Source: Enterobacterales bacterium (GTDB taxonomy: Bacteria; Pseudomonadota; Gammaproteobacteria; Enterobacterales; Enterobacteriaceae). From it: a DNA stretch of 35,696 nt. The position numbers and the translations under genes were made by a program. Positions 8,980 through 30,732 of this stretch are shown here, one piece after another. The stretch covers positions 1-35,696 of the forward strand of contig JAATGH010000066.1 in assembly GCA_015654745.1 (NCBI GenBank). The letters are read 5' to 3'. How positions within the stretch are numbered: the stretch's first letter is position 1; the number at the start of each line of letters is the position of its first letter. The notes below the pieces were generated by a model that did no database searches, was not told the origin of the DNA, and was given only the letters and a program-made list of their open reading frames with translations.

Positions 8980-9457
8980 GCTTTGGCGCCGGGGATTCGG
9001 CTCCTTGCGCCAGATGATAAATAAACACCGGCTTATCGGGGTATTCGATACCATCGGCCAGATATTGCCAACCTTCGCGCTCGTAATAACCGCGAAAGGT
9101 GGCGTACAAATAAAGATGCTCGTATCCCGCCCGGCGGCCGTACGCTATCACAAACCGCTGCAATGCCCTGCCCAGGCCCCTGCCGCGCCAGCTTTCATCC
9201 ACATAGAGCGCCGCGAGCCAGGGCGTAAGATCCTGGCGGGTAAGCAGATCGCACCGCCATAGTCCCACGGTGCCCACCGGCCGGCCGCCGTCAAGCGCGA
9301 TAAACGCCATCGGCAGTCCCTCGCGGCGCATGCCGTTGTCGACCATGGCACTGTAAAATCGCCGACCGGTGTCTTGGCCGAAAGCCCGCCACAGCCAGTC
9401 GATCGTCAATTCGCGATATTGGGGATAATCGGCCAGCGGGGCGATAACCCAGGCCAT
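8930..9457 (-). CDS. GNAT family N-acetyltransferase
   Basis: A predicted acetyl-CoA-dependent acetyltransferase of 175 residues with unknown acceptor. Motif A, which binds acetyl-CoA pyrophosphate, is clear as ESWRGRGLGRALQRF, and a C-terminal YYEREGWQYL segment is the common GNAT ending. The last 17 or so residues are Ala/Pro/Gly-rich and are encoded opposite the galR 3' end (50-bp overlap), so the tail may have been acquired by run-on after insertion of this block. Its ATG overlaps the GntR stop as TAATG, so the two are translationally coupled. Confidence 0.85.
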   Translation of the reverse strand: MAWVIAPLADYPQYRELTIDWLWRAFGQDTGRRFYSAMVDNGMRREGLPMAFIALDGGRPVGTVGLWRCDLLTRQDLTPWLAALYVDESWRGRGLGRALQRFVIAYGRRAGYEHLYLYATFRGYYEREGWQYLADGIEYPDKPVFIYHLAQGAESPAPKLRTAAARPNGGAPGSD

Positions 9458-10212
9458 TAGACTAGCTTGCCCTGAAAAATCGGTACGGATTCAAACAGAT
9501 ACCCATCAAATTCCGGCGCGTCGGCATCGGAAATTTCCATTAGGGTATTTTTGACGCTTTCCATATGCTGCCACATACTTTGATAGGACCCCATAACATC
9601 CCGCCGGCGCAAGGCCACCAGAATATTTTGATGATCCGCCAGCCAGCGCAGGCGTAGCGAACGCGTATCGATATGGCTGTAGAGCTGCTGCCATAACGCG
9701 CTCGACTCCTGGCGCAACCAGATGGACTTAACCGTTTCCAGCAGCATCTGATTTTGCGTGGCGCCGGCGATCAGCTCATGAAACAGCTTATCGTTATTGA
9801 CGCTGCGTTCGTTGGTCGTGATATCGCGCTGCTCCTGCTCCAGGGAGCGCCGCAGATTTTCTATATCCATTTTAGTGGCCATTTTGGCGGCGAAGGCCGC
9901 GATATTGCTCTCCAGCAGCTGGCGAGCCTGCAGCAGTTCAAATGGCCCCACTTCACTCTCGTAAATGGCCGGTTCGCCCGCATCCTCAAGAGGAATACGG
10001 GTTACATAGACGCCGGATCCCTGGCGGATATCGACAATGCCTTCCAGCTCGAGCATCAGCAACGCTTCGCGGATAATGGTACGGCTCACGCCGTAGGTTT
10101 CCGCGATATTACGTTCGGGGGGCAAACGCGCGTTCACCGGGTAATCGCCCGAGGTGATCTTTTGACGCAGATCCCGGCCAATTTCCTGATACTGTTTTTT
10201 TTCCTGCAACAT
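9457..10212 (-). CDS. GntR-family (FadR/FCD) regulator of the adjacent PTS genes
   Basis: A DNA-binding repressor of 251 residues from ATG at 10212. The N-terminal winged helix carries ARLPPERNIAETYGVSRTII and REALLMLELEGIVDIRQGSG, very close to the UxuR/ExuR recognition region. The C-terminal half looks like an FCD ligand-binding domain (ELLQARQLLESNIAAFAA). A GTG at 10248 would extend it by 12 residues, but the ATG has a good ribosome site (GAGGG). UxuR-like proteins bind TTGGTATACCAA. Three similar palindromes lie between the PTS IIC and IIA genes, so it probably controls this PTS locus. The effector may be a phosphosugar; this is inferred. Confidence 0.88.
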   Translation of the reverse strand: MLQEKKQYQEIGRDLRQKITSGDYPVNARLPPERNIAETYGVSRTIIREALLMLELEGIVDIRQGSGVYVTRIPLEDAGEPAIYESEVGPFELLQARQLLESNIAAFAAKMATKMDIENLRRSLEQEQRDITTNERSVNNDKLFHELIAGATQNQMLLETVKSIWLRQESSALWQQLYSHIDTRSLRLRWLADHQNILVALRRRDVMGSYQSMWQHMESVKNTLMEISDADAPEFDGYLFESVPIFQGKLV

Positions 10213-10262
10213 CACGCCCTCTTCCCCTAGCCATGCGAACGAACCCACGTCGTTACATCAGG

Positions 10263-10580
10263 CTAGTGTAACAAACCCAGAGCCTGATCGAGTACCTTTG
10301 CGCCGTTTAAAGTACCATAAGCCACGGAATCGATAACCGCGATGGGAATCTGATATTCATCGGTTAGCTTTTTATTTGCCACTAGCTTGAAACGGACCTG
10401 GGGACCCAGCAGCACCACCACGATGTCGTTACCGTAAGTCTGCAACTCGTCGCGCAGATTTTGCTCCGGGATGGCGTAGATCAAATAATCCAACGACCGT
10501 ATGGCCGCTTCTTTTTCCATTTTAGTGACCACCAGCGAGGTGGACATGCCCGCCGAGCAGGCCAGAATAATACGTTTCAT
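10263..10580 (-). CDS. PTS Lac/cellobiose-type EIIB component
   Basis: The soluble phosphocarrier that passes phosphate from IIA to the sugar during transport through IIC. It has 105 residues (ChbB 106). The phosphorylated cysteine is C8 in ILACSAGMSTS, the standard Lac-family IIB loop. An upstream in-frame ATG at 10607 overlaps the glycosidase gene, but ATG at 10580 has AAGGA six bases before it and gives the family length. It lies 10 bases after the GH1 gene in one operon: IIC, GH1, IIB, gntR, GNAT. Confidence 0.94.
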   Translation of the reverse strand: MKRIILACSAGMSTSLVVTKMEKEAAIRSLDYLIYAIPEQNLRDELQTYGNDIVVVLLGPQVRFKLVANKKLTDEYQIPIAVIDSVAYGTLNGAKVLDQALGLLH

Positions 10581-18576: not shown

Positions 18577-19320
18577 TTAATCGCGCGATACCCGGATGAA
18601 ATCGCCGCTGGCCCGGACGTTCATACCGAATCCGCAATCACCTGCAACCGTATCCAGATGCACCCGCTCAGGGGTAAACGCCAGCTCCACACGGCACGAT
18701 GCCTCCGCGTCCCGATCGTCCTGCCGGTAGACCGCCCGGCCGGCCACAATCGTCTCCACGGCGGAAAAATCCCCCCTATTCGGGCCATAATACATACCCA
18801 TGGCCGGCATATAATAGCCGCTAAACGCAATCCGCCAACGTTCCCCTTCCGGCTGCACCGATACCGAACTCCATACCCCCAAACCGGCATAGCGCCAGTA
18901 CTCCCCTCTGGGACTCGCGGCCAACGCCGGCTGCAGGCCGGCGAGCGCAGGTTGCAACAGCGCCAGGTTGGCCACGCTTTCATTGTCTTCCGGCACCAGG
19001 GCAATCCAGGCCCGGGCCTTTAGCGGCTCCCCGACGCGCAGCAACGCCAGCGCAATATTATTATAAGCCATGGCAATGGAGGCCCGCGGGAGACGGCAAA
19101 ACTCGCTCCAGGCAGCCTGGGCGGTATAGTCGTCCACGGCGCGGCTCCAATTCTGTTGCCGATACGCCGCATCACCGGCCTGCGCGTAATGGCTGATTTT
19201 TTCACAATCGGTGGTAATCTGCCGGTCTTGCGCGGTGATATCGGCAGTATCGCCGGCAGCGTGACAAAAGACGCTATAGGTCGCCGCGGCGACAACGAAG
19301 ACTGTCAGTTTCCGATTCAT
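18577..19320 (-). CDS. Secreted hypothetical protein with TPR-like helices
   Basis: I do not recognise this family. From ATG at 19320 the protein has 247 residues. It starts with a Sec signal peptide (positively charged MNRK, hydrophobic core, probable cleavage near CHA-AG), so it is likely periplasmic. Residues about 45-105 form helical TPR-like repeats (AGDAAYRQQNWSRAVDDY, then NNIALALLRVGEPLKA). The C-terminal half is beta-rich, with aromatic strands such as GLGVWSSVSV and FSGYYMPAMG, and has several cysteines. A start at 19356 would add 12 residues before the signal and has no ribosome site. It is divergent from the P450. Confidence 0.7.
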   Translation of the reverse strand: MNRKLTVFVVAAATYSVFCHAAGDTADITAQDRQITTDCEKISHYAQAGDAAYRQQNWSRAVDDYTAQAAWSEFCRLPRASIAMAYNNIALALLRVGEPLKARAWIALVPEDNESVANLALLQPALAGLQPALAASPRGEYWRYAGLGVWSSVSVQPEGERWRIAFSGYYMPAMGMYYGPNRGDFSAVETIVAGRAVYRQDDRDAEASCRVELAFTPERVHLDTVAGDCGFGMNVRASGDFIRVSRD

Positions 19321-19360
19321 CCAAGGTCCACAGGCTAAGGGGGGTACAGAATTCATTAAA

Positions 19361-19379: not shown

Positions 19380-19697
19380 CGCAAGCAATAAGTAAAGGTA
19401 CTATGATGCGGGCTCAGGGCATTTATCCGCGGGCCGGATGCTCCGGGCCATTGCTAAAGAAGGCAACGGCAATAATGCCGGTTAATGACTTCGCGATGGC
19501 TCGCTATGGTTAGGTTAATGAATATTCGCCACTAAAATTAAGCAGTATTATTAAATTACTTTTTTTCAGGTCACGCGATATATTAATTTTATATTCATCC
19601 TTTAATCCTGGATGAATATATGTATTAACGTCAATACTTGTCCATGCTCTCCCTAATATTAACGCCAGGTATATATTTCCCTTACTGGAGCGCAACT
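19380..19697. other. Intergenic region between the TPR-like gene and the P450
   Basis: This stretch of about 318 bases is non-coding as far as I can see. Its left half has ordinary composition, and its right half (19510-19690) is strongly AT-rich. It contains an 11-bp inverted repeat at 19590-19620 that may be an operator for the P450 gene. No sigma-70 promoter pair could be assigned with confidence. Confidence 0.5.
19590..19620. promoter_or_regulatory. 11-bp perfect inverted repeat upstream of the P450
   Basis: Arms TATATTCATCC (19590-19600) and GGATGAATATA (19610-19620) are perfectly complementary with a nine-base spacer. There is no T run, so a terminator is unlikely. A two-turn dyad 78 bases before the start fits a dimeric regulator site. 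Confidence 0.4.
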
Positions 19698-21284
19698 ATG
19701 CAAAGAAGACAATTTTTAAAAGGCGCGGCCGTGCTGGGTGTGACAACGGGCAGCTCGGCAACCCGCGTATTCGCGGCGGGCACTGCGGCGGCCCAATGCC
19801 AGGCGGACGTACCGACGCCCATTGCCGCCGCGGTGGCGCGTTTTCGTCAGACCATTCCCGCTAATTTCGATGCTACCTATGTTGAAAATGCGGTAATCCC
19901 TTTTTTTCTTGCCAGCCTTTATGAGGGCGAAAGACCGTTACTGCCTATTATTGATGCGGCATTGAGTAAGGAAAATGCGCTGCCCCATGATTTATGGGGA
20001 CTCATATATAAAGACTGGCGCCCCACCCCGGAAGAGGGCAGTACGGTATTTCTCCAAGGCCTGGAAAACCGCGGCGAGGATAATTTGCGAAAGCGTATCT
20101 ATTTCAGCGCCGTCACGCCCGATCTCTACAAACCGATGTATCAGGGCAAGGTGGTGGCGTTTTTTGATCGTTTATTAGACAAAAAATATGCCAACCAGCC
20201 CTTTATGCGCCATTATCTCGATGACTATTTTGATATTTACTGGGACCTGCACCTGGGGGTCAGCGGCAAGGCCATCCCGGCGCAGGTCAGAGAAATCGGC
20301 GAAGCCTTTAATACCGTGCTGGCGTATCGCAATCCGCTGGACCCGATTGTCTATGAAAATTATATGAAGGTCCGGCAGCATCTCGATTTTCTAAAAAAAT
20401 GGATCGACGACCGGGTAGCCGATATCAAAAACGGCCGCACGCCCCATCCGGAAAAAACCATGGTTTGGTACTGGCTGAAAAATGCCGGTGATGGCAAGCA
20501 TTTCGGGATCAAAGATATTGTATTTGAATGTTTCCATAATTTTGTCGCCTTTAGTCAATGGGGCAACTCCATTTACGGCATTATGTCGCGGCTGAGCGAA
20601 CAGGGAGGCGATGCCAAAGTGCGGGAAGCGTTCAAGACCACCATGAGCGGCGATTACGATAACGCCGGCGACGCCGTTTATACTCCCCTGGAACTCTTGG
20701 TTATGGAGCTGTTTCGCACCATTTCCCCCAATGGCGGCAGTATTTCCTCGGTAGTGGACGCCCGGGTATCGGCCTATGGCGAGTCCCCGCATGCGCGCTT
20801 CGGACTGCCGTTTGAACGCCATAGTTTTATCGTCACGCCACATGTCGACACCAGCAATAACCCGGTCCTGTGGCGCGAACCGGAACGATTTGATCCCGAT
20901 CGCTACCGCGATGTTCCCACCAGCGCCGACATTACCGAAGAAAAGATCCAGGATCTCGGGTTGGCCCGCTGTCCCTTCGCGATTACCAAACTGGATGTCA
21001 ACGATGGCCGTAACGTCAGCATCACCAACAGCGGTTTCGGTACCGTATTCGCCACGGTGGAAGGAAAACCCAAGCCGGTATGCGACTATGCGGGCTTTGC
21101 CCCCTTTGGCTTTAGCTACCGCCGTTGTCCCGGCGAGCAGCTTACCATCCAGGTCTTCGAGGATTTCCTGCGTAAGGTCTGGCGCGACAAGATTACGTTC
21201 CGCAAACTCGATCTGGCAAAGGTCGGACGTGTCCCCATCGGGCCGGTAGCGGTCATTGACGATAATATCGGCTTTAGCCGTTAA
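19698..21284 (+). CDS. Cytochrome P450 with a twin-arginine (Tat) signal
   Basis: A heme-thiolate protein of 528 residues from ATG at 19698, which has GGAG seven bases upstream. An in-frame start at 19638 would bury the signal and has no ribosome site. The N-terminus MQRRQFLKGAAVLGV, ending near RVFA-AG, is a Tat-type leader, so the folded, heme-loaded protein is probably exported to the periplasm. P450 landmarks appear in order: ExxR (E337-R340, K helix), PERF (395-398) and the heme loop FGFSYRRCPGEQ with ligand C477. The expected I-helix region (near NFVAFSQWGNSIY) lacks the acid-alcohol pair needed for O2 activation. No ferredoxin or reductase gene is nearby. Peroxide- or hydroperoxide-using chemistry is possible; the substrate is unknown. 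Confidence 0.85.
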   Translation: MQRRQFLKGAAVLGVTTGSSATRVFAAGTAAAQCQADVPTPIAAAVARFRQTIPANFDATYVENAVIPFFLASLYEGERPLLPIIDAALSKENALPHDLWGLIYKDWRPTPEEGSTVFLQGLENRGEDNLRKRIYFSAVTPDLYKPMYQGKVVAFFDRLLDKKYANQPFMRHYLDDYFDIYWDLHLGVSGKAIPAQVREIGEAFNTVLAYRNPLDPIVYENYMKVRQHLDFLKKWIDDRVADIKNGRTPHPEKTMVWYWLKNAGDGKHFGIKDIVFECFHNFVAFSQWGNSIYGIMSRLSEQGGDAKVREAFKTTMSGDYDNAGDAVYTPLELLVMELFRTISPNGGSISSVVDARVSAYGESPHARFGLPFERHSFIVTPHVDTSNNPVLWREPERFDPDRYRDVPTSADITEEKIQDLGLARCPFAITKLDVNDGRNVSITNSGFGTVFATVEGKPKPVCDYAGFAPFGFSYRRCPGEQLTIQVFEDFLRKVWRDKITFRKLDLAKVGRVPIGPVAVIDDNIGFSR

Positions 21285-21337: not shown

Positions 21338-22369
21338 TCACTCGGATAGCAGGTCGGCGTAGGCAGGGGTCACCAGCATGATTTTACCGATATGCGTGCT
21401 CCCTTCCATCAGCGTGTGGGCATCACACGCCAGATGTAAGGGAAAGGTCCGATCGATCAACGGCCTGATCTTTCCGGCGGCCAGCAGCGGCCAGACCTGT
21501 TGCTCCAAATCCGCGGCGATGAGGGCTTTTTCCGCCACCGCGCGCGGCCGTAGGGTCGAGCCGGTATGGGTTAACCGTTTAGCCAGCATCATCATCAGAT
21601 TCAACTCCTTCGCCGGGCCGTTTTGGACGCCGATTTGTACAATCCTGCCGTCCACCGCCGCCGCCGCATAGTTACGGGCCACGTAGTCGCCGGCGATCAA
21701 ATCGACGATCACGTCCACACCATGCCCCTCGGTCAGGCGCCGGGTCTGCGCGACAAAATCCTCCGTATGGTAGTTAATCGCGCCATCGGCCCCCAGTTTC
21801 AGCACCGCCGCGCATTTGTCGGCGGATCCGACGGTGGCGAACACCGTGGCGCCAAACGCTTTCGCCAGCATAATGGTCACCGTACCGATGCCGGACGTTC
21901 CACCATGAACCAGCAGAATCTCCCCCGCCCGCAGTTTGCCACGCTGAAAGACGTTGGTCCAGACGGTAAAAAACGTCTCTGGCAGCGCCGCCGCCTGCAG
22001 TAAGGACAGCCCCCGCGGCACCGGCAATGCATTGGTTTCATGCACCACGCAGTACTCCGCATACCCGCCACCGGCAATCAGGGCGCAAACCGCATCGCCC
22101 ACGGCGTAGCGCCGCACGCCGGCGCCCAGCGCCACCACTTCCCCCGCAATTTCCAGGCCAGGCAGCTCCGAGGCACCGGCGGGAGGCGGATACACGCCCT
22201 TGCGCTGCAATACGTCGGGGCGGTTAACGCCGGCCGCGGCGATCTTGACCAGCAAATAGCCAGGATCCGGCCGGGGCACCGGTACGTCGACTCTAATCAG
22301 TTGTTCTGGACCGCCGGGCTGTTGGATGGCGATAGCCTGCATTGAGGCGGGAATAGCAGATGAATTCAT
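21338..22369 (-). CDS. NAD(P)H quinone oxidoreductase, zinc-independent MDR family
   Basis: A cytosolic medium-chain dehydrogenase/reductase of 343 residues, close to the PIG3/QOR group that reduces quinones or alpha,beta-unsaturated carbonyls with NADPH. Landmarks are the AAGVNRPDVLQRKGVYPPP substrate loop, LPGLEIAGEV, and the nucleotide-binding HGGTSGIGTVTIMLAKAFG. Catalytic and structural zinc-binding cysteines are absent, as expected. AGGA lies ten bases before ATG at 22369; a second ATG nine residues in has no ribosome site. It is convergent with the P450, and there is no evidence that it serves as its redox partner. Confidence 0.88.
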   Translation of the reverse strand: MNSSAIPASMQAIAIQQPGGPEQLIRVDVPVPRPDPGYLLVKIAAAGVNRPDVLQRKGVYPPPAGASELPGLEIAGEVVALGAGVRRYAVGDAVCALIAGGGYAEYCVVHETNALPVPRGLSLLQAAALPETFFTVWTNVFQRGKLRAGEILLVHGGTSGIGTVTIMLAKAFGATVFATVGSADKCAAVLKLGADGAINYHTEDFVAQTRRLTEGHGVDVIVDLIAGDYVARNYAAAAVDGRIVQIGVQNGPAKELNLMMMLAKRLTHTGSTLRPRAVAEKALIAADLEQQVWPLLAAGKIRPLIDRTFPLHLACDAHTLMEGSTHIGKIMLVTPAYADLLSE

Positions 22370-25496: not shown

Positions 25497-26783
25497 CTAT
25501 CGTCCCCGAGTGACCTCAAATTCATCGATATTGACCGGCGCCTGGCGCTGCATGGATAAGTTAGCCGCCACGCCGGTCAGAATCGACAGGGCTCCCGCCC
25601 GGTGGTCGGCGGCGCGTTGTAACGGATCGATACCCGGCTCGCCAAAAAGATCGTTAAGCATCACGTTATCACCCCCGCCATGTCCACCTTCCCCATAGGC
25701 CACCGGGGCCTCCCAAGGCTCGGCGAACATGGGGTAAACCATAATCTGGCAGGACTCCAGCCCCCCCTCATCTGCTCGCTGTCCTCCCGCGTTGACATAC
25801 GATGTTTCGATAACCTTCATTTCCATACGCCCCTGGCTACCGTTAAAGACCACGTTGAGACCTTCCAGCGGTAGGTAAGCATTCAGCGAGTAGGTTAGCA
25901 GCGCCCGGTTTTTATACTTCACCAGCACCGACATCGTATCTTCGATATTGATACCATCACTAAAGACGCTTTGATCGCGGTAATAGCCATCTTCGAACTC
26001 CGCAGCCAAATACAGTGCGGTTAAGGATTCCGACTGCTCAAGATGTAGGGCAAAGGGATCGTTTTCAGCCTGTTTGCACCCATGGGCGCGGGAATAAAAT
26101 TGCTTAACGCCGCGTAACTCCGCATTTTCCCGCCCATAAAATCGCAACGCGCCTTGGGCGTAAACCGTTTCCGGTTCAGTGCCCAACCAAAAATTGACCA
26201 GATCAAAATGATGTGTCGCTTTATGTACCAGCAACCCGCCGCTGTTGCGCTTGTCGCGGTGCCAGCGCCGGAAATAGTCCGCGCCGTGCTGGGTATTAAG
26301 CATCCATTCGAAATGCACCGAATACACATCTCCGATCGTGCGCTTCATCAGTAATTCCCGCACCTTGCTATGATGAGGGGCATAGCGGTAATTAAACGTG
26401 ACCCGCAATGATTTACCGGTTTTCTTGATAGTATTAACAATATTAAGCGCCCGGTCAGCATCAATGGTCATGGGTTTTTCGCTAATAACATCACATCCCA
26501 ATTCCATGGCCCTGATGATGTAATGATCATGGGTTCTGTCGATACTGGTGACAATCACGACATCGGGGTGCAACGTGTTAATCATGGCATCGAATTCCGA
26601 CGCAGACCAGGTCGGTACCGCCGCATGGCCATATTTTGTTATTATGCTATTGGCATAATTCATTCTGGTCTGATTGGTATCGCAAAAGGCAACCCATCTT
26701 GCGTTTTCACGGTAATCGCGCGCAATGGCCTCCAAATATAATCCTGAACGTCCTCCGGTACCCACTAAGGCATAGCTTTTCAT
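25497..26783 (-). CDS. Gfo/Idh/MocA family oxidoreductase
   Basis: An NAD(P)-dependent sugar or sugar-acid oxidoreductase of 428 residues. The N-terminal Rossmann domain starts with LVGTGGRSGLY, and the family EKP motif is present as SEKPMTID. The C-terminal domain carries the mixed-sheet substrate-binding region, with a lysine-histidine-rich stretch LVHKATHHFDLVNFW. ATG at 26783 is preceded by GGAG, while the ORF could begin at 26801 inside the porin stop region. It is the last gene of the rhiT-rhiN-porin cluster and probably handles a product of that pathway; the exact substrate is unknown. Confidence 0.85.
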   Translation of the reverse strand: MKSYALVGTGGRSGLYLEAIARDYRENARWVAFCDTNQTRMNYANSIITKYGHAAVPTWSASEFDAMINTLHPDVVIVTSIDRTHDHYIIRAMELGCDVISEKPMTIDADRALNIVNTIKKTGKSLRVTFNYRYAPHHSKVRELLMKRTIGDVYSVHFEWMLNTQHGADYFRRWHRDKRNSGGLLVHKATHHFDLVNFWLGTEPETVYAQGALRFYGRENAELRGVKQFYSRAHGCKQAENDPFALHLEQSESLTALYLAAEFEDGYYRDQSVFSDGINIEDTMSVLVKYKNRALLTYSLNAYLPLEGLNVVFNGSQGRMEMKVIETSYVNAGGQRADEGGLESCQIMVYPMFAEPWEAPVAYGEGGHGGGDNVMLNDLFGEPGIDPLQRAADHRAGALSILTGVAANLSMQRQAPVNIDEFEVTRGR

Positions 26784-26800
26784 CGAGAGTTTCTCCATCA

Positions 26801-27904
26801 TTAGAAATAATAGATCAGCGCAACGGCCAGAACATTATCAACATTGATGCCGCTATTGTCGGTAAAGCTATTTTTATGAAGCAAATTGACTTTATATATC
26901 ACGTCGGCCGACATGTTTTTATTAAAAAAATAGGCTCCCCCTAAAGCAATATATTTTAGTATTGCCTGGTCGCCGTATCCCTCAATATTTTTGCCATCGG
27001 TCTGTAGATAACCGACTATCGGCGCCAATCCCGAGAGGAACTGATACTGCGCAATCAGCTCCAGTACATGTGCCTGGTTAGCAAACCCATAGGCCGCATG
27101 GCTGGAACTGCCAAACGGAGTTGCATTGTAGGTCTGGGTATAGGTCGCGGCCAGATAAACCTGATTGGCATCGTACTTAAGACCGGCGCGATAGGCTTCC
27201 GCCTTATCTCCACGGCCGTAATCGATACCATTTTGCCCTTGGGTGCGATCGGAGGAGGAAAACGCCGCGCCGGCGCTCACGCCCGCGCCCAGATCATAAA
27301 TCAACGACATACCATAACCGTCGCCGTTTTGTTGCTGCACCCCTCGGCTATTATTGGTTTCGCCTGGACCGCCATTTCGGCCTTGATACTGCAGGGTGAA
27401 TTTAAGCCCATCTGCCAAACCAAACAGGTTTTTATTGCGATAGGTGAGTAAGCCGGTGGTGCGTTTAAACATAAAATTATCGATACCGTAGGCATCACCA
27501 CCGAATTCCGGTATCACGTCGGTCCAGGCGCCAAGATCGTATAACACGCCGAAATTACGGCCATAATCCACAGAACCATATTTACCGAATCTTAGCCCAG
27601 AATAACCTAAACGGGTCACGCTCGTATTGGTGCTACTTTCGGCCTGATTCGCGTTTATCTGTTGTTCCCACTGGCCGTAACCGGTGATCAGATCGTTTAC
27701 CTGCGTTTCGCCACGAAACCCGAAACGCATATAGGATTGATCGCCATCGATTCCCGTATTATCAGAAAACATATGTAGCGTATCTACTTTACCGTAAAGC
27801 TCGAGCTTATTTCCATCTTTATTAACCAGCACGGCCGCCATGCTGCCATTTAACCACAGACAAAGGGATATTGCTAATGTGAGGCCTGTAAATTGAATTT
27901 TCAT
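26801..27904 (-). CDS. OmpC/OmpF-type general porin
   Basis: A trimeric 16-strand outer-membrane beta-barrel of 367 residues. A Sec signal peptide (cleavage near SMA-AV, about residue 23) is followed by the diagnostic mature start [15 protein letters not shown]. Loop L3 carries PEFGGDAYG, the constriction motif of OmpC/PhoE, and the protein ends in YYF, with terminal Phe needed for assembly. General porins are usually monocistronic. Here the gene lies inside a minus-strand cluster for rhamnogalacturonide use, 93 bases after rhiN and 17 bases before the oxidoreductase start, so it probably provides an entry route for that substrate. Confidence 0.92.
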
Positions 27905-27948
27905 ACGAACCCTTATAAAGGTAAGAATTATAATTTTTATAATAGCTA

Positions 27949-27972
27949 CCTGGGGGATATAACATCCCCAGG
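27949..27972 (-). repeat. Intergenic hairpin between rhiN and the porin gene
   Basis: CCTGGGG (27949-27955) and CCCCAGG (27966-27972) form a 7-bp GC-rich stem with one extra G. No T run follows on the minus strand, so it looks more like an mRNA-stabilising or attenuating hairpin than a full terminator. Confidence 0.45.
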
Positions 27973-27997
27973 CGTATATAACATGTAACCTATATAA

Positions 27998-29140
27998 TTA
28001 AATATAAATATTAAGATATTCTGAAAGGCTTAGAATTGCCATTGCCTGACCGTAAGGCATCGACGTTAATGGAATCTGGCGATAATAATCAAGAGAGCTG
28101 CCCATCGCCGTACCAAAAGACACCTTGGTTAATTCACCCTGAGGATTAATATTGGCGATAACGCCACGAATGGCTTTTTCAGCCATGGGAAAATACGTAG
28201 GGGCGATATAACGTTTACGTACGGCCTTCAATATGCCATAAGCGAAGCCGGCGGTTGCCGAGGATTCCAGGTAAGAATCGGCATCATCCAATAGCGTATG
28301 CCATAACCCGCTTTCATCTTGACATGCCGCCAACGCATCAATTTGGCTTGCGAGGACTTGCAGTAAATAACGGCGGGTGGCGTTATGCTCGGGAAGTTCG
28401 AGCAATTCAATAAACTCCGGGATCGCCACGGTCAGCCAACTGTTGCCGCGCGCCCACCGGGCACGGGCAAAATTATGCTTACCATCAAAATTCCAGCCAT
28501 GGAACCATAGGCCGGTCTCACGATCCATCAGATATTGCGTATGCAATAAAAACTGGTAAGTAGCTTCTTCGACAAACTCGGGCCGATTAAGCAATTTCCC
28601 TATTTTCGCCAAGGGTAGAACGCTCATCATTAACGTGTCATCCCACATTTGCTGGTGGTTTTCACTGTTATAAACAATGTGCTGCAAACCCTGTTTTTCG
28701 GTGCGCGGCATTTCATACATTACCCATTCCGCCCAGCGTTCCAAATAGGGGCGCCACTCCGGCCGGGGGGTTTCTTCATACAGATAAGCAAGCGTAAGAA
28801 ACGGGCACATGGTATTGACGTTTTTGGTCGGGGTCCCGGCGGCCAGGCTGGCGGTAAACCACCGATCCAAAATGGCTCGCATCGTTTTATCCCCGGTCTG
28901 GCGATAATATTGATAAATGCCGTATAGCCCAATCCCATGCGTCCATTCCCATCCAGCTGCCCATCCTTTGGTATCAATGACCCGGCCATCGTCAAGCCGC
29001 AGTAGAAATTCGCCGGTGGTATCTTCAATATTGATCAAATCATCGGTAATTTTGCAAATCAACGCTTTAAGCTCATCCCGTGAAATAAAATGTTCAGGCT
29101 GACGCAATAAGGCACTGTGTTTTACATTGAATACTGTCAT
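27998..29140 (-). CDS. rhiN: Unsaturated rhamnogalacturonyl hydrolase (GH105)
   Basis: A cytosolic (alpha/alpha)6-barrel hydrolase that removes the unsaturated galacturonate from disaccharides made by rhamnogalacturonan lyase, giving rhamnose and an unsaturated uronate. It has 380 residues. Family markers are the catalytic D168 (MWDDTL) and H214 (WFHGWN), 46 residues apart as in Bacillus YteR D143/H189, and ARGNSW. ATG at 29140 with AAGGA upstream is chosen over 29173, which overlaps rhiT. It directly follows rhiT, matching the Dickeya rhiTN operon. GH88-type specificity is less likely. Confidence 0.88.
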   Translation of the reverse strand: MTVFNVKHSALLRQPEHFISRDELKALICKITDDLINIEDTTGEFLLRLDDGRVIDTKGWAAGWEWTHGIGLYGIYQYYRQTGDKTMRAILDRWFTASLAAGTPTKNVNTMCPFLTLAYLYEETPRPEWRPYLERWAEWVMYEMPRTEKQGLQHIVYNSENHQQMWDDTLMMSVLPLAKIGKLLNRPEFVEEATYQFLLHTQYLMDRETGLWFHGWNFDGKHNFARARWARGNSWLTVAIPEFIELLELPEHNATRRYLLQVLASQIDALAACQDESGLWHTLLDDADSYLESSATAGFAYGILKAVRKRYIAPTYFPMAEKAIRGVIANINPQGELTKVSFGTAMGSSLDYYRQIPLTSMPYGQAMAILSLSEYLNIYI

Positions 29141-29169
29141 CATCGTTCCTTTCTTTACTGTAATATCAA

Positions 29170-30732
29170 TCAAACATGGTTTAACTGAGCAGCTTTTTCC
29201 GGCACACCCTTGGCGCGATTTAAATAGCCGATATTGTTATTTCCCCACAGCGATTCATATTTCATGCCGACCAGCATTTCAACGGTTGCCCGGGCTTCGG
29301 GAGTAATATCTTGTGGCACCGGCTGATTAGCCACCCGCATCTTATGGATTTCCTGTTGTAACACTTGATGGGTTTTCAGATTGAGTTTGAAACGCAGGGA
29401 AATATAGAAACCGATACAAAGCACCACCAGTGTTCCCAAACACAAGACGGCTAACAGCGTGTGTTTGACGCCCGGTGTTTGCATACTTTGCCCGGAAATA
29501 AACCCTGACAGTTGTAATACTATCCCAACCAACATCACCGCGCCGGCCTGGGACGCTTTGCGCGTCAGGGTCATAATGCCGGCAAACACCCCTTCGCGCC
29601 GTTGCGCTGTGATCGCTTCATCCACATCGGCAATGTAGGTGTAGATATTCCAGGGAACATAGTTAATACCGCCGCGGCCCAACCCAGCGATAGCGGAGAT
29701 CACCATTAATACCAGGAAATTGTAATCAAGACTTAAGTAGTACAGCGCGCCGTAGGACACGACCGCAATACCGAACAGCGTCACCACCAACCGGTAGGAA
29801 GGCGCGGGCCCAAGGCGAATACACAGAGGGATCATACAAAGCACGGCAACCAATTGGAGAATCGACATCACGCCCATCAGTTGCGAGGCCACCGTTGCGC
29901 TTTGCATCAGGACAAAGACCACGTAATAGGTAAACACCGCATTAAAAATGTCCTGTGCGATATATCCACCCAGATACAATCCCAAATGCTGCCGGAAAAT
30001 CCGAATTCGAAACGTAGATGACAGTTCAATATGCAGCCGTTTCAGGCTTTGCGCCAATGTCAGTTGCTGCTTTTCCCGTTCGAGCTTAAGCGTGGCTTCC
30101 GACTTGAGTTCCGCGGGTCGTTCCCAGGTAAACAGGTAAACCAAGGTCAACATAATGGCGCACAGGGTCGAGAACACCAGGCTAGCGTAAAAAAAGGAAA
30201 TCGCGTTATCTTTACCAAAATGAGCCAATAATACGCCAGGTAAGAAAGCCGCCAGTATGGCGGAGGTTTGCGCCAGGGCAATGCGGGCACCAGAAAATTT
30301 CGCCTTCTGTTTGAAATCGTCGGTCATCTCCGGTACTAACGTTTCATAAGGCACCAGTATCATGGTGTAAACCGAGTCAAACAATAAATAGGTGACCAGG
30401 TAATACCAAAACTCCATATGCCCCATCCACATCAGGCTATAGCTAAATACGCAAGGAATACCTAACAAGATGAAAAATTTACGCCGGCCAAAATGCCTGC
30501 CGAGCCAGGTATTGCCGAAATTATCCGTCAAAAATCCCATTAATGGACTCAGAATCGCATCCAGCACACGCGCCGCAAAAAAGATAAACGTCGCTTCTAT
30601 TGCCGTTAAACCGCAGAAGGTGGTGTAAAAATACAGTAGCCATGCCGAAGTGAGGGCCGTGGTCCCGGCACCTAAAAAGTCACCCGAGCCGTAAGCCAGG
30701 TAATTGTGTAAGCGTATTATTCGTTTTGTCAT
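29170..30732 (-). CDS. rhiT: Rhamnogalacturonide transporter RhiT (GPH/MFS)
   Basis: A cation symporter for rhamnogalacturonan oligosaccharides in the inner membrane. From ATG at 30732 it has 520 residues and 12 predicted helices. Markers of the glycoside-pentoside-hexuronide family are NYLAYGSGDFLGAGTTAL, the DAILSPLMGFLTDNFG loop, and RREGVFAGIMTLTRKASQAG in the C-terminal half. It agrees with remembered RhiT sequences in these regions. The 30777 start would place 15 odd residues before the TKRIIRLHNYL beginning. It is first in the cluster with rhiN, a porin and an oxidoreductase. Confidence 0.85.
   Translation of the reverse strand: MTKRIIRLHNYLAYGSGDFLGAGTTALTSAWLLYFYTTFCGLTAIEATFIFFAARVLDAILSPLMGFLTDNFGNTWLGRHFGRRKFFILLGIPCVFSYSLMWMGHMEFWYYLVTYLLFDSVYTMILVPYETLVPEMTDDFKQKAKFSGARIALAQTSAILAAFLPGVLLAHFGKDNAISFFYASLVFSTLCAIMLTLVYLFTWERPAELKSEATLKLEREKQQLTLAQSLKRLHIELSSTFRIRIFRQHLGLYLGGYIAQDIFNAVFTYYVVFVLMQSATVASQLMGVMSILQLVAVLCMIPLCIRLGPAPSYRLVVTLFGIAVVSYGALYYLSLDYNFLVLMVISAIAGLGRGGINYVPWNIYTYIADVDEAITAQRREGVFAGIMTLTRKASQAGAVMLVGIVLQLSGFISGQSMQTPGVKHTLLAVLCLGTLVVLCIGFYISLRFKLNLKTHQVLQQEIHKMRVANQPVPQDITPEARATVEMLVGMKYESLWGNNNIGYLNRAKGVPEKAAQLNHV

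Follow-up and report, generated by a model that had tools for sequence, protein, structure and literature searches.

The window analysed in this study, i.e. the whole stretch of 35,696 nucleotides of enterobacterial DNA, encodes a protein of 528 amino acids (19698..21284, + strand, from the ORF list and its translation; the protein begins MQRRQFLKGAAVLG) which is well supported, by its modelled fold and its motifs, as a very divergent cytochrome P450. A Tat-type leader on this P450-like protein is likewise well supported by sequence comparison, and the protein would be expected to bind heme and to be actually exported through Tat. The reading to which we give slightly better than an even chance is that of a periplasmic, partner-independent heme-thiolate enzyme which would convert a peroxide or an organic hydroperoxide. 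Partner independence, the type of chemistry and the substrate are what we infer from the features described below, and the substrate class is a guess.

Results

The ATG of the gene is preceded, 7 nt to its 5' side, by a Shine-Dalgarno-like GGAG (19687..19690, + strand) read from the sequence, which is a plausible ribosome-binding site. The ORF could alternatively start in frame at a TTG (19638); in the relatives the start codon also stands immediately ahead of the twin Arg, as called by a script that favoured starts at the expected place. Along the + strand, the frame holds the twin-arginine leader MQRRQFLK...VFA (residues 1-26, 19698..19775, the cleavage site being inferred by eye), an I-helix groove FECFHNFVAFSQWGN (residues 276-290, 20523..20567) which replaces A/G-G-x-D/E-T according to profile alignment and conservation, the ExxR of helix K (E337-L-F-R340, 20706..20717) and a PERF-type motif ERFDPDRY (residues 396-403, 20883..20906), the last two placed from family alignments. 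PERF is literal in the window protein, within R-E-P-E-R-F-D-P-D-R-Y. A family-specific longer stretch with the conserved C425 and C462 (residues 404-465, 20907..21092, + strand) leads from PERF to the heme-Cys loop APFGFSYRRCPGE (residues 468-480, 21099..21137, + strand), in which C477 is the presumed thiolate ligand. The loop reads F470-G-F-S-Y-R-R-C477-P-G, with Ser473 where most family members have the Gly of FGxGxRxCxG.

The sequence-only reading had called this protein a P450 from its ExxR, PERF and Cys motifs, and the call is borne out by the PF00067 matches of the family, by profile-profile comparison and by an AlphaFold2 model. It had also named PF00067 as a check, a missing match counting against a P450; here the window protein alone scored 16.4 bits and did not reach the Pfam gathering cut-off of 22.8, which is a curated threshold and no biochemical feature, but this verdict is overturned by the family, all 61 of 61 scanned members matching PF00067 at E <= 0.01 (best 2.8e-8). 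A scan of the protein's own genome with PF00067 reported no match at E <= 0.001. The PDB sequence search with the single protein gave weak P450 matches only (best E 0.06). With the family profile, CYP1A2 (E 2.4e-4) was the only sequence below E 0.001, and the 49 sequences found up to E 1 were P450 or P450-like except for two matches at chance level (E 0.017 and 0.05) to an unrelated bacterial toxin; the alignments listed pair the ExxR, PERF and Cys-loop regions. Further, a single profile-profile comparison with 21 conventional P450s from genomes of the host's family gave a probability of 96.9% and E 1.8e-10, with the I helix, ExxR, PERF and Cys loop matched in order.

The AlphaFold2 model of the window protein (pLDDT 84.8, pTM 0.85) found 1098 PDB matches in Foldseek at E <= 0.001, and the best 50 of the 1098 are all P450s. 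Structural comparison of the model gave VIA Z values of 22.9-25.1 for the best 50 entries at 10-16% identity, the top match being CYP109E1 (Z 25.1 over 340 residues at 3.6 A). Moreover, 77 of the 78 aligned members retain the Cys pocket, ExxR and the PERF-type motif; the exception is a frameshifted copy. This conservation argues against an exported heme-binding protein that performs no redox catalysis and serves as heme carrier, sensor or peroxide sink. Such a role would agree with the iron-type ABC transporter genes adjoining the P450 in Yersinia frederiksenii, but the neighbour families that recur do not include FecCD-type genes, and we give this explanation hardly any weight.

The scan of a genome collection confirmed 93 relatives, from which 80 loci were kept at 48-81% identity. 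With a genome search added the loci total 85; 78 of them could be aligned near full length and 7 partial or broken copies failed the length filter and were left out. From these loci, 61 sequences (the window protein and 60 relatives) were hand-picked for an alignment whose mean column identity is 54%. The 60 relatives are 48-81% identical to the window protein and thus lie above the 40% identity that defines one CYP family (extract of PMC10813956). Members occur in Pseudomonadota, Actinomycetota, Cyanobacteriota, Chloroflexota and Myxococcota. They are also present on MAG contigs labelled Verrucomicrobiota, Acidobacteriota and Nitrososphaerota; these labels may reflect contamination, and are doubtful because the copy in an Acidobacteriaceae MAG is nearly identical to an alphaproteobacterial one. 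Two family copies were seen in some genomes (Mycolicibacterium komossense, Ktedonobacter racemifer, Massilia and Mesorhizobium soli), the two-copy cases including L034 and L043 on one contig as well as G731, G737 and G724.

A sample of 52 genomes was assembled from the genomes for 46 of the 80 kept loci and six genomes of the host's genus, among them G005, which is without the family. The family profile matched in 51 of the 52, full-length members scoring 731-919 bits. Three short pieces, perhaps fragments of family members, followed at 27-38 bits, and no other match at E <= 0.1 exceeded 18 bits; in genomes with many first-look candidates, part of them were scored. Against 398 genomes drawn from the phylum, the profile returned only the window's own matches. 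By this score gap and the result in the 398 genomes, the family is rare and discrete, and no forms intermediate between it and conventional P450s were seen in these samples. It is also nearly invisible to annotation: two of three plasmid records label the product 'twin-arginine translocation signal domain-containing protein', and the third 'hypothetical protein'. The earlier view that P450s are rare in Enterobacterales is right only in part: PF00067 matches in 46 of 295 genomes of the host's family, none of these 46 belonging to the genus.

The N terminus MQRRQFLKGAAVLGVTTGSSATRVFA comprises the twin Arg, F-L-K, an uncharged stretch of 14 residues with low hydrophobicity, an R and V-F-A. Pfam TAT_signal covers residues 1-17 of the window protein at 19.9 bits, below the cut-off of 22.7, and reaches E <= 0.01 in 7 of the 61 scanned members. 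This check therefore falls short for the single protein, but the leader is conserved across phyla. By our own sequence pattern, on which all the leader counts rest, 45 of the 78 aligned members have a twin Arg, 8 have a twin Arg together with a lipobox Cys and 25 have no leader, the 8 lipobox members (of 53 bearing the leader) lying in the mycobacterial branch. A midpoint-rooted tree was built from 74 rows, after removal of 3 duplicates and of L057, a frameshifted row without the Cys loop. It contains a clade of 49 rows (support 100/100), 48 of which have the leader; the sole leaderless row of the clade is Mycobacterium neglectum, with a start that is perhaps miscalled. The other 24 of the 25 leaderless rows fall outside this clade, where cyanobacterial, chloroflexotal, myxococcal, streptomycete-type and Massilia forms are found. 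The above counts uphold the leader proposed earlier, and TatC was found in 6 of 6 genus genomes, including that of the host. Both the leader and the P450 motifs are conserved across phyla and hence do not go back to chance. The Falsiroseomonas member (L069:5881-7413) has a Tat-like leader on a long branch among leaderless relatives and is perhaps an independent gain of export.

A leader that is not used, in a protein staying in the cytosol like its leaderless relatives, would be in line with the TAT_signal scores and with the cyanobacterial, actinobacterial and Chloroflexota leaderless relatives, which share the whole catalytic domain. We consider it very unlikely. The leader is kept throughout a large clade, a lipobox has been gained in the mycobacterial branch, and the members linked to an outer-membrane barrel (see below) all have the leader where the N terminus is readable; residues 1-38 of the model have a pLDDT under 50. 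Survival of the leader across families and the lipobox gain make its use the best explanation. As the leaderless relatives keep the same catalytic residues, the chemistry would be independent of export.

The distal side of the predicted heme pocket differs from that of conventional P450s. The I-helix segment FE(C/V)FHNF(V/L/I)A(F/L)(S/N)QWG is present in 78 of 78 aligned members, with (F/L)-(S/N)-Q-W-G in place of the acid-alcohol pair in every one of them; in the 61-row alignment H280, N281, Q287, W288 and G289 show no variation, and N290 hardly any. Profile-profile alignment sets AFSQ-WGN on AGEDTTAN of the conventional P450s, so the acid-alcohol pair is absent however the one-residue gap is placed. 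The acid-alcohol pattern was found in 23 of 29 P450s of host-family genomes, the other 6 conventional ones also deviating. We know of no described P450 with the distal motif HNFxAx(S/N)QWG.

These residues also bear on the possibility of an H2O2-dependent, CYP152-like peroxygenase acting on a fatty acid or other carboxylate. The CYP152 enzymes (CypC, OleT) share the P450 fold with the window protein and, if our main reading is right, also the partner-free use of peroxide; their structures are among the good matches of the model (VIA Z about 23), and no NCBIfam family other than CypC gave a match at E <= 0.01. However, this Z value is tied with those of many other P450s and the CypC score is 16.4 bits where the cut-off is 600. 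CYP152 peroxygenases have an Arg-Pro pair in the I helix, which is missing from the conserved segment of the window family, and a CYP152-like enzyme thus appears distinctly unlikely.

On the proximal side, 74-76 residues separate the PERF-type Arg from the Cys in the 78 aligned members, in comparison to 15-29 in the 21 conventional P450s, a count whose starting point, the PERF column, is out of register in part of those rows. The family has about 53 extra residues ahead of the Cys loop, and the stretch before this loop lies in P450s by the proximal face where redox partners dock; the extra residues may cover or reshape the docking face. The FG(F/Y)(G/S)YRRC loop itself is of normal length in 77 of the 78 members, the exception being the frameshifted copy. 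A disulfide between C425 and C462 was considered as proof of a periplasmic site and rejected, both Cys being kept in leaderless members too (24/25 and 21/25).

The window and G004 share the gene order lysA-lysR-MFS-259aa-P450-PIG3; no MFS gene was found at the corresponding place of G003. The continuation umuD-umuC-panS is shared by the window and G005. The divergent neighbour, conserved in the genus, encodes 259 amino acids (18577..19356, - strand), and the convergent one a PIG3-type NAD(P)H quinone oxidoreductase (21338..22369, - strand); both are probably outside the P450 system. The 259-aa product has no Pfam or NCBIfam match at E <= 0.01; its N terminus is signal-peptide-like and the gene holds the same place in the genus. 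In the sister genome G005 the PIG3 and 259-aa genes lie about 150 bp apart with the P450 missing. This empty site marks the P450 as a single-gene insertion or loss, and both neighbours, which remain there, were rejected as P450 partners. In two plasmid records the family gene lies among transposase genes. GC3 of the gene is 0.61 as against 0.67-0.77 for seven neighbours, which is weak evidence because two other window genes have 0.62-0.63. Elsewhere in the window (25497-29173) an inositol-dehydrogenase-like gene, a gram-negative porin and a GH88 hydrolase stand in a row, possibly with a role in plant cell-wall sugars.

Around the P450 loci 186 neighbour ORFs were listed and most of the longer ones were scanned. 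The scan comprised 142 rows in two sets (77 and 65), among which are a single duplicate, some frames that overlap and a few manual additions. The tables of neighbour families cover the commonest 25 of 67 and 25 of 82 families. In the set of 77, PF13557 and AraC-type regulators (5 each) were the only families found in more than two ORFs, and in the set of 65 there was no such family. No recurrent redox partner was found among the 142 scanned rows. For the window, the earlier statement that no reductase lies nearby holds good, the adjacent PIG3-type oxidoreductase being no P450 reductase and persisting in the P450-less G005. Some frames called beside the P450 were set aside as probably spurious, namely c10 in mycobacteria, which has no Pfam match, and a 1067-aa frame in L031, which overlaps the barrel gene.

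A few loci do have redox genes close by, and these favour an exported conventional O2-activating monooxygenase which would take electrons from a membrane or periplasmic donor such as a ferric-reductase-like flavocytochrome, a quinol- or PQQ-linked chain or cytochrome c. A transmembrane flavocytochrome of this type (PF01794 with FAD and NAD domains) lies near the P450 in Yersinia frederiksenii (L006:2849-4165, - strand) and Mycolicibacterium hodleri (L032:3699-5051, + strand), the two being 44% identical to each other. Upstream of leaderless members there is a flavodoxin-fold gene in Ktedonobacter racemifer (L063:5061-5717, 157 bp away) and a PQQ dehydrogenase in Massilia (L082:1462-3906, 23 bp away). 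However, the flavocytochrome is near the P450 in those two distinct loci only. Homologues 72-78% identical occur in G002-G005, of which G005 is without the P450, and the P450-bearing G000 and G001 have only weak ones (best E 2.1e-8 and 6.5e-11). This distribution does not track the P450, and the protein was rejected as an obligate donor. The missing acid-alcohol pair makes O2 activation less likely; electron-transfer partners could be encoded elsewhere in the genome. On balance we regard an exported monooxygenase as unlikely, though deserving of some weight. Lipoxygenase (PF00305) was likewise rejected as a general hydroperoxide-making partner, being found in 4 of the 52 genomes and absent from the host genome. 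In Yersinia frederiksenii, the iron-type ABC transporter genes (Peripla_BP_2, FecCD and ATPase) follow the P450 at L006:7940-11671.

The one dedicated neighbour of the family, as judged from gene context, would be an outer-membrane barrel of PF13557. It adjoins the P450 in 10 of the 85 loci (L006, L007, L009, L018, L019, L020, L021, L031, L035 and L077), many of the 85 being incomplete at their ends, and also on a Serratia fonticola plasmid (L087). The pairs occur in three relative orientations, and wherever the N terminus of a barrel-linked member is readable, the leader is present. At an identity of at least 54% the barrel was found in 8 of the 52 genomes and in 0 of 398 controls (Fisher p 1.9e-8), a contrast biased by a query taken from these loci, by 52 genomes that were chosen and related, and by controls from one phylum, and partly circular because the barrel was found in these P450 loci. 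Weak matches of 24-38% identity were all that 33 of the 398 controls contained. The barrel occurs in one of the six genus genomes, G003, where it is unlinked to the P450, and none was found in the host genome (495 contigs, assembly 83.7% complete); the window's enzyme would therefore work without this channel or with another one. By name only, PF13557 hints at aromatic or hydrophobic compounds. In G003 the barrel relative has a type III polyketide synthase gene at a distance of 0.6 kb (L146:7717-8637 and 9223-10392). This synthase accompanies the unlinked barrel but is missing from all the P450 loci analysed, and was rejected as a partner. After the P450 and barrel of the Serratia fonticola plasmid come an S-type pyocin-like gene and an immunity gene (L087:11330-13946).

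Discussion

As a periplasmic hydroperoxide-converting enzyme, the P450 would fold with its heme in the cytoplasm and be carried in the folded state by Tat to the periplasm, where it would work without ferredoxin or reductase. The peroxide reacting there with the heme-thiolate iron would more likely be an organic or lipid hydroperoxide which is the substrate itself, in chemistry of the isomerase, dehydratase or lyase type as in CYP74, PGIS and fungal LDS; H2O2 as the oxidant of a hydrophobic substrate would be less likely. In several lineages a dedicated outer-membrane barrel probably imports the substrate. The periplasm is not known to contain NAD(P)H, and this, together with the travel of the gene alone, the lack of a recurrent partner and the missing O2 motif, leads to the partner-independent reading. 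The last three features, as judged from sequence and gene context, also make peroxide use by a self-sufficient enzyme likelier.

In comparison to the P450 superfamily (PF00067), the window family shares the fold and the order of ExxR, PERF and the Cys loop. The window protein differs from it in scoring below the gathering cut-off and in having only 10-16% identity to the solved P450s listed, and its family differs in the lost acid-alcohol pair, the extra residues and the leader. The CYP74 clan (AOS, HPL, DES and EAS) also has a non-canonical I-helix groove with amides, and independence of O2 and of partners is presumed to be common to both. The groove of plant AOS is given as FATcFN321TwGGMKI with Asn321 in a self-sufficient enzyme (extract of PMC13049297), and the clan has a bacterial member, MnHPL of Methylobacterium nodulans (extract of PMC10813956). 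The nine-residue insertion in the heme-binding domain of CYP74 (extract of PMC8124189) is, however, absent from the window family, whose long insertion precedes the Cys loop. CYP74 enzymes conserve a catalytic Asn in the I-helix groove, and the groove of the window family contains N281 and N290. No chain named CYP74 is among the 49 PDB sequences at E <= 1, and the clan was compared by its described features.

The QWGN of the window protein may also be compared with CYP8A1 (PGIS) and the fungal LDS and EAS domains, which perform a self-sufficient O-O rearrangement and have an amide in SRS4. PGIS has LQlWATQGN287MgPA with Asn287, and fungal LDS and EAS are counted among the self-sufficient enzymes with such grooves (both in extracts of PMC13049297). 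Unlike these enzymes, the window protein is predicted to be exported and has no dioxygenase fusion. None of them appears by name in the list of 49 PDB sequences (E <= 1), and no CYP74 or CYP8A1 structure is among the best 50 structural matches listed, which excludes nothing. TXS and several fungal AOS cleave the O-O bond with no axial amide (same extracts of PMC13049297), so the chemistry cannot be read off the I-helix sequence. A periplasmic route through fatty-acid hydroperoxides is known from the oleate-diol synthase PA2077/PA2078 of Pseudomonas aeruginosa, whose enzymes have type I signal peptides and make and convert fatty-acid hydroperoxides (extract of PMC4496055); they belong to the di-heme cytochrome c peroxidase family, unlike the window P450.

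Among the matches listed from open-access PMC titles and abstracts, a scope outside which subscription papers and preprints lie, there is no report of an exported bacterial P450. We put forward tentatively, at somewhat under an even chance, that the family is the first recognised exported P450 lineage: partner-free, mobile as a single gene, periplasmic or a surface lipoprotein in mycobacteria, fed by a barrel in several lineages, and converting lipid or aromatic hydroperoxides.

The P450s of bacteria are regarded as enzymes of the cytosol which depend on partners fed by NAD(P)H. If a conserved exported branch is real, P450 chemistry would be possible where NAD(P)H is unavailable, and the family would be a natural source of catalysts that need no partner, fold with their heme and pass through Tat. 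It would also point to extracytoplasmic metabolism of hydroperoxides or aromatic compounds in environmental bacteria.
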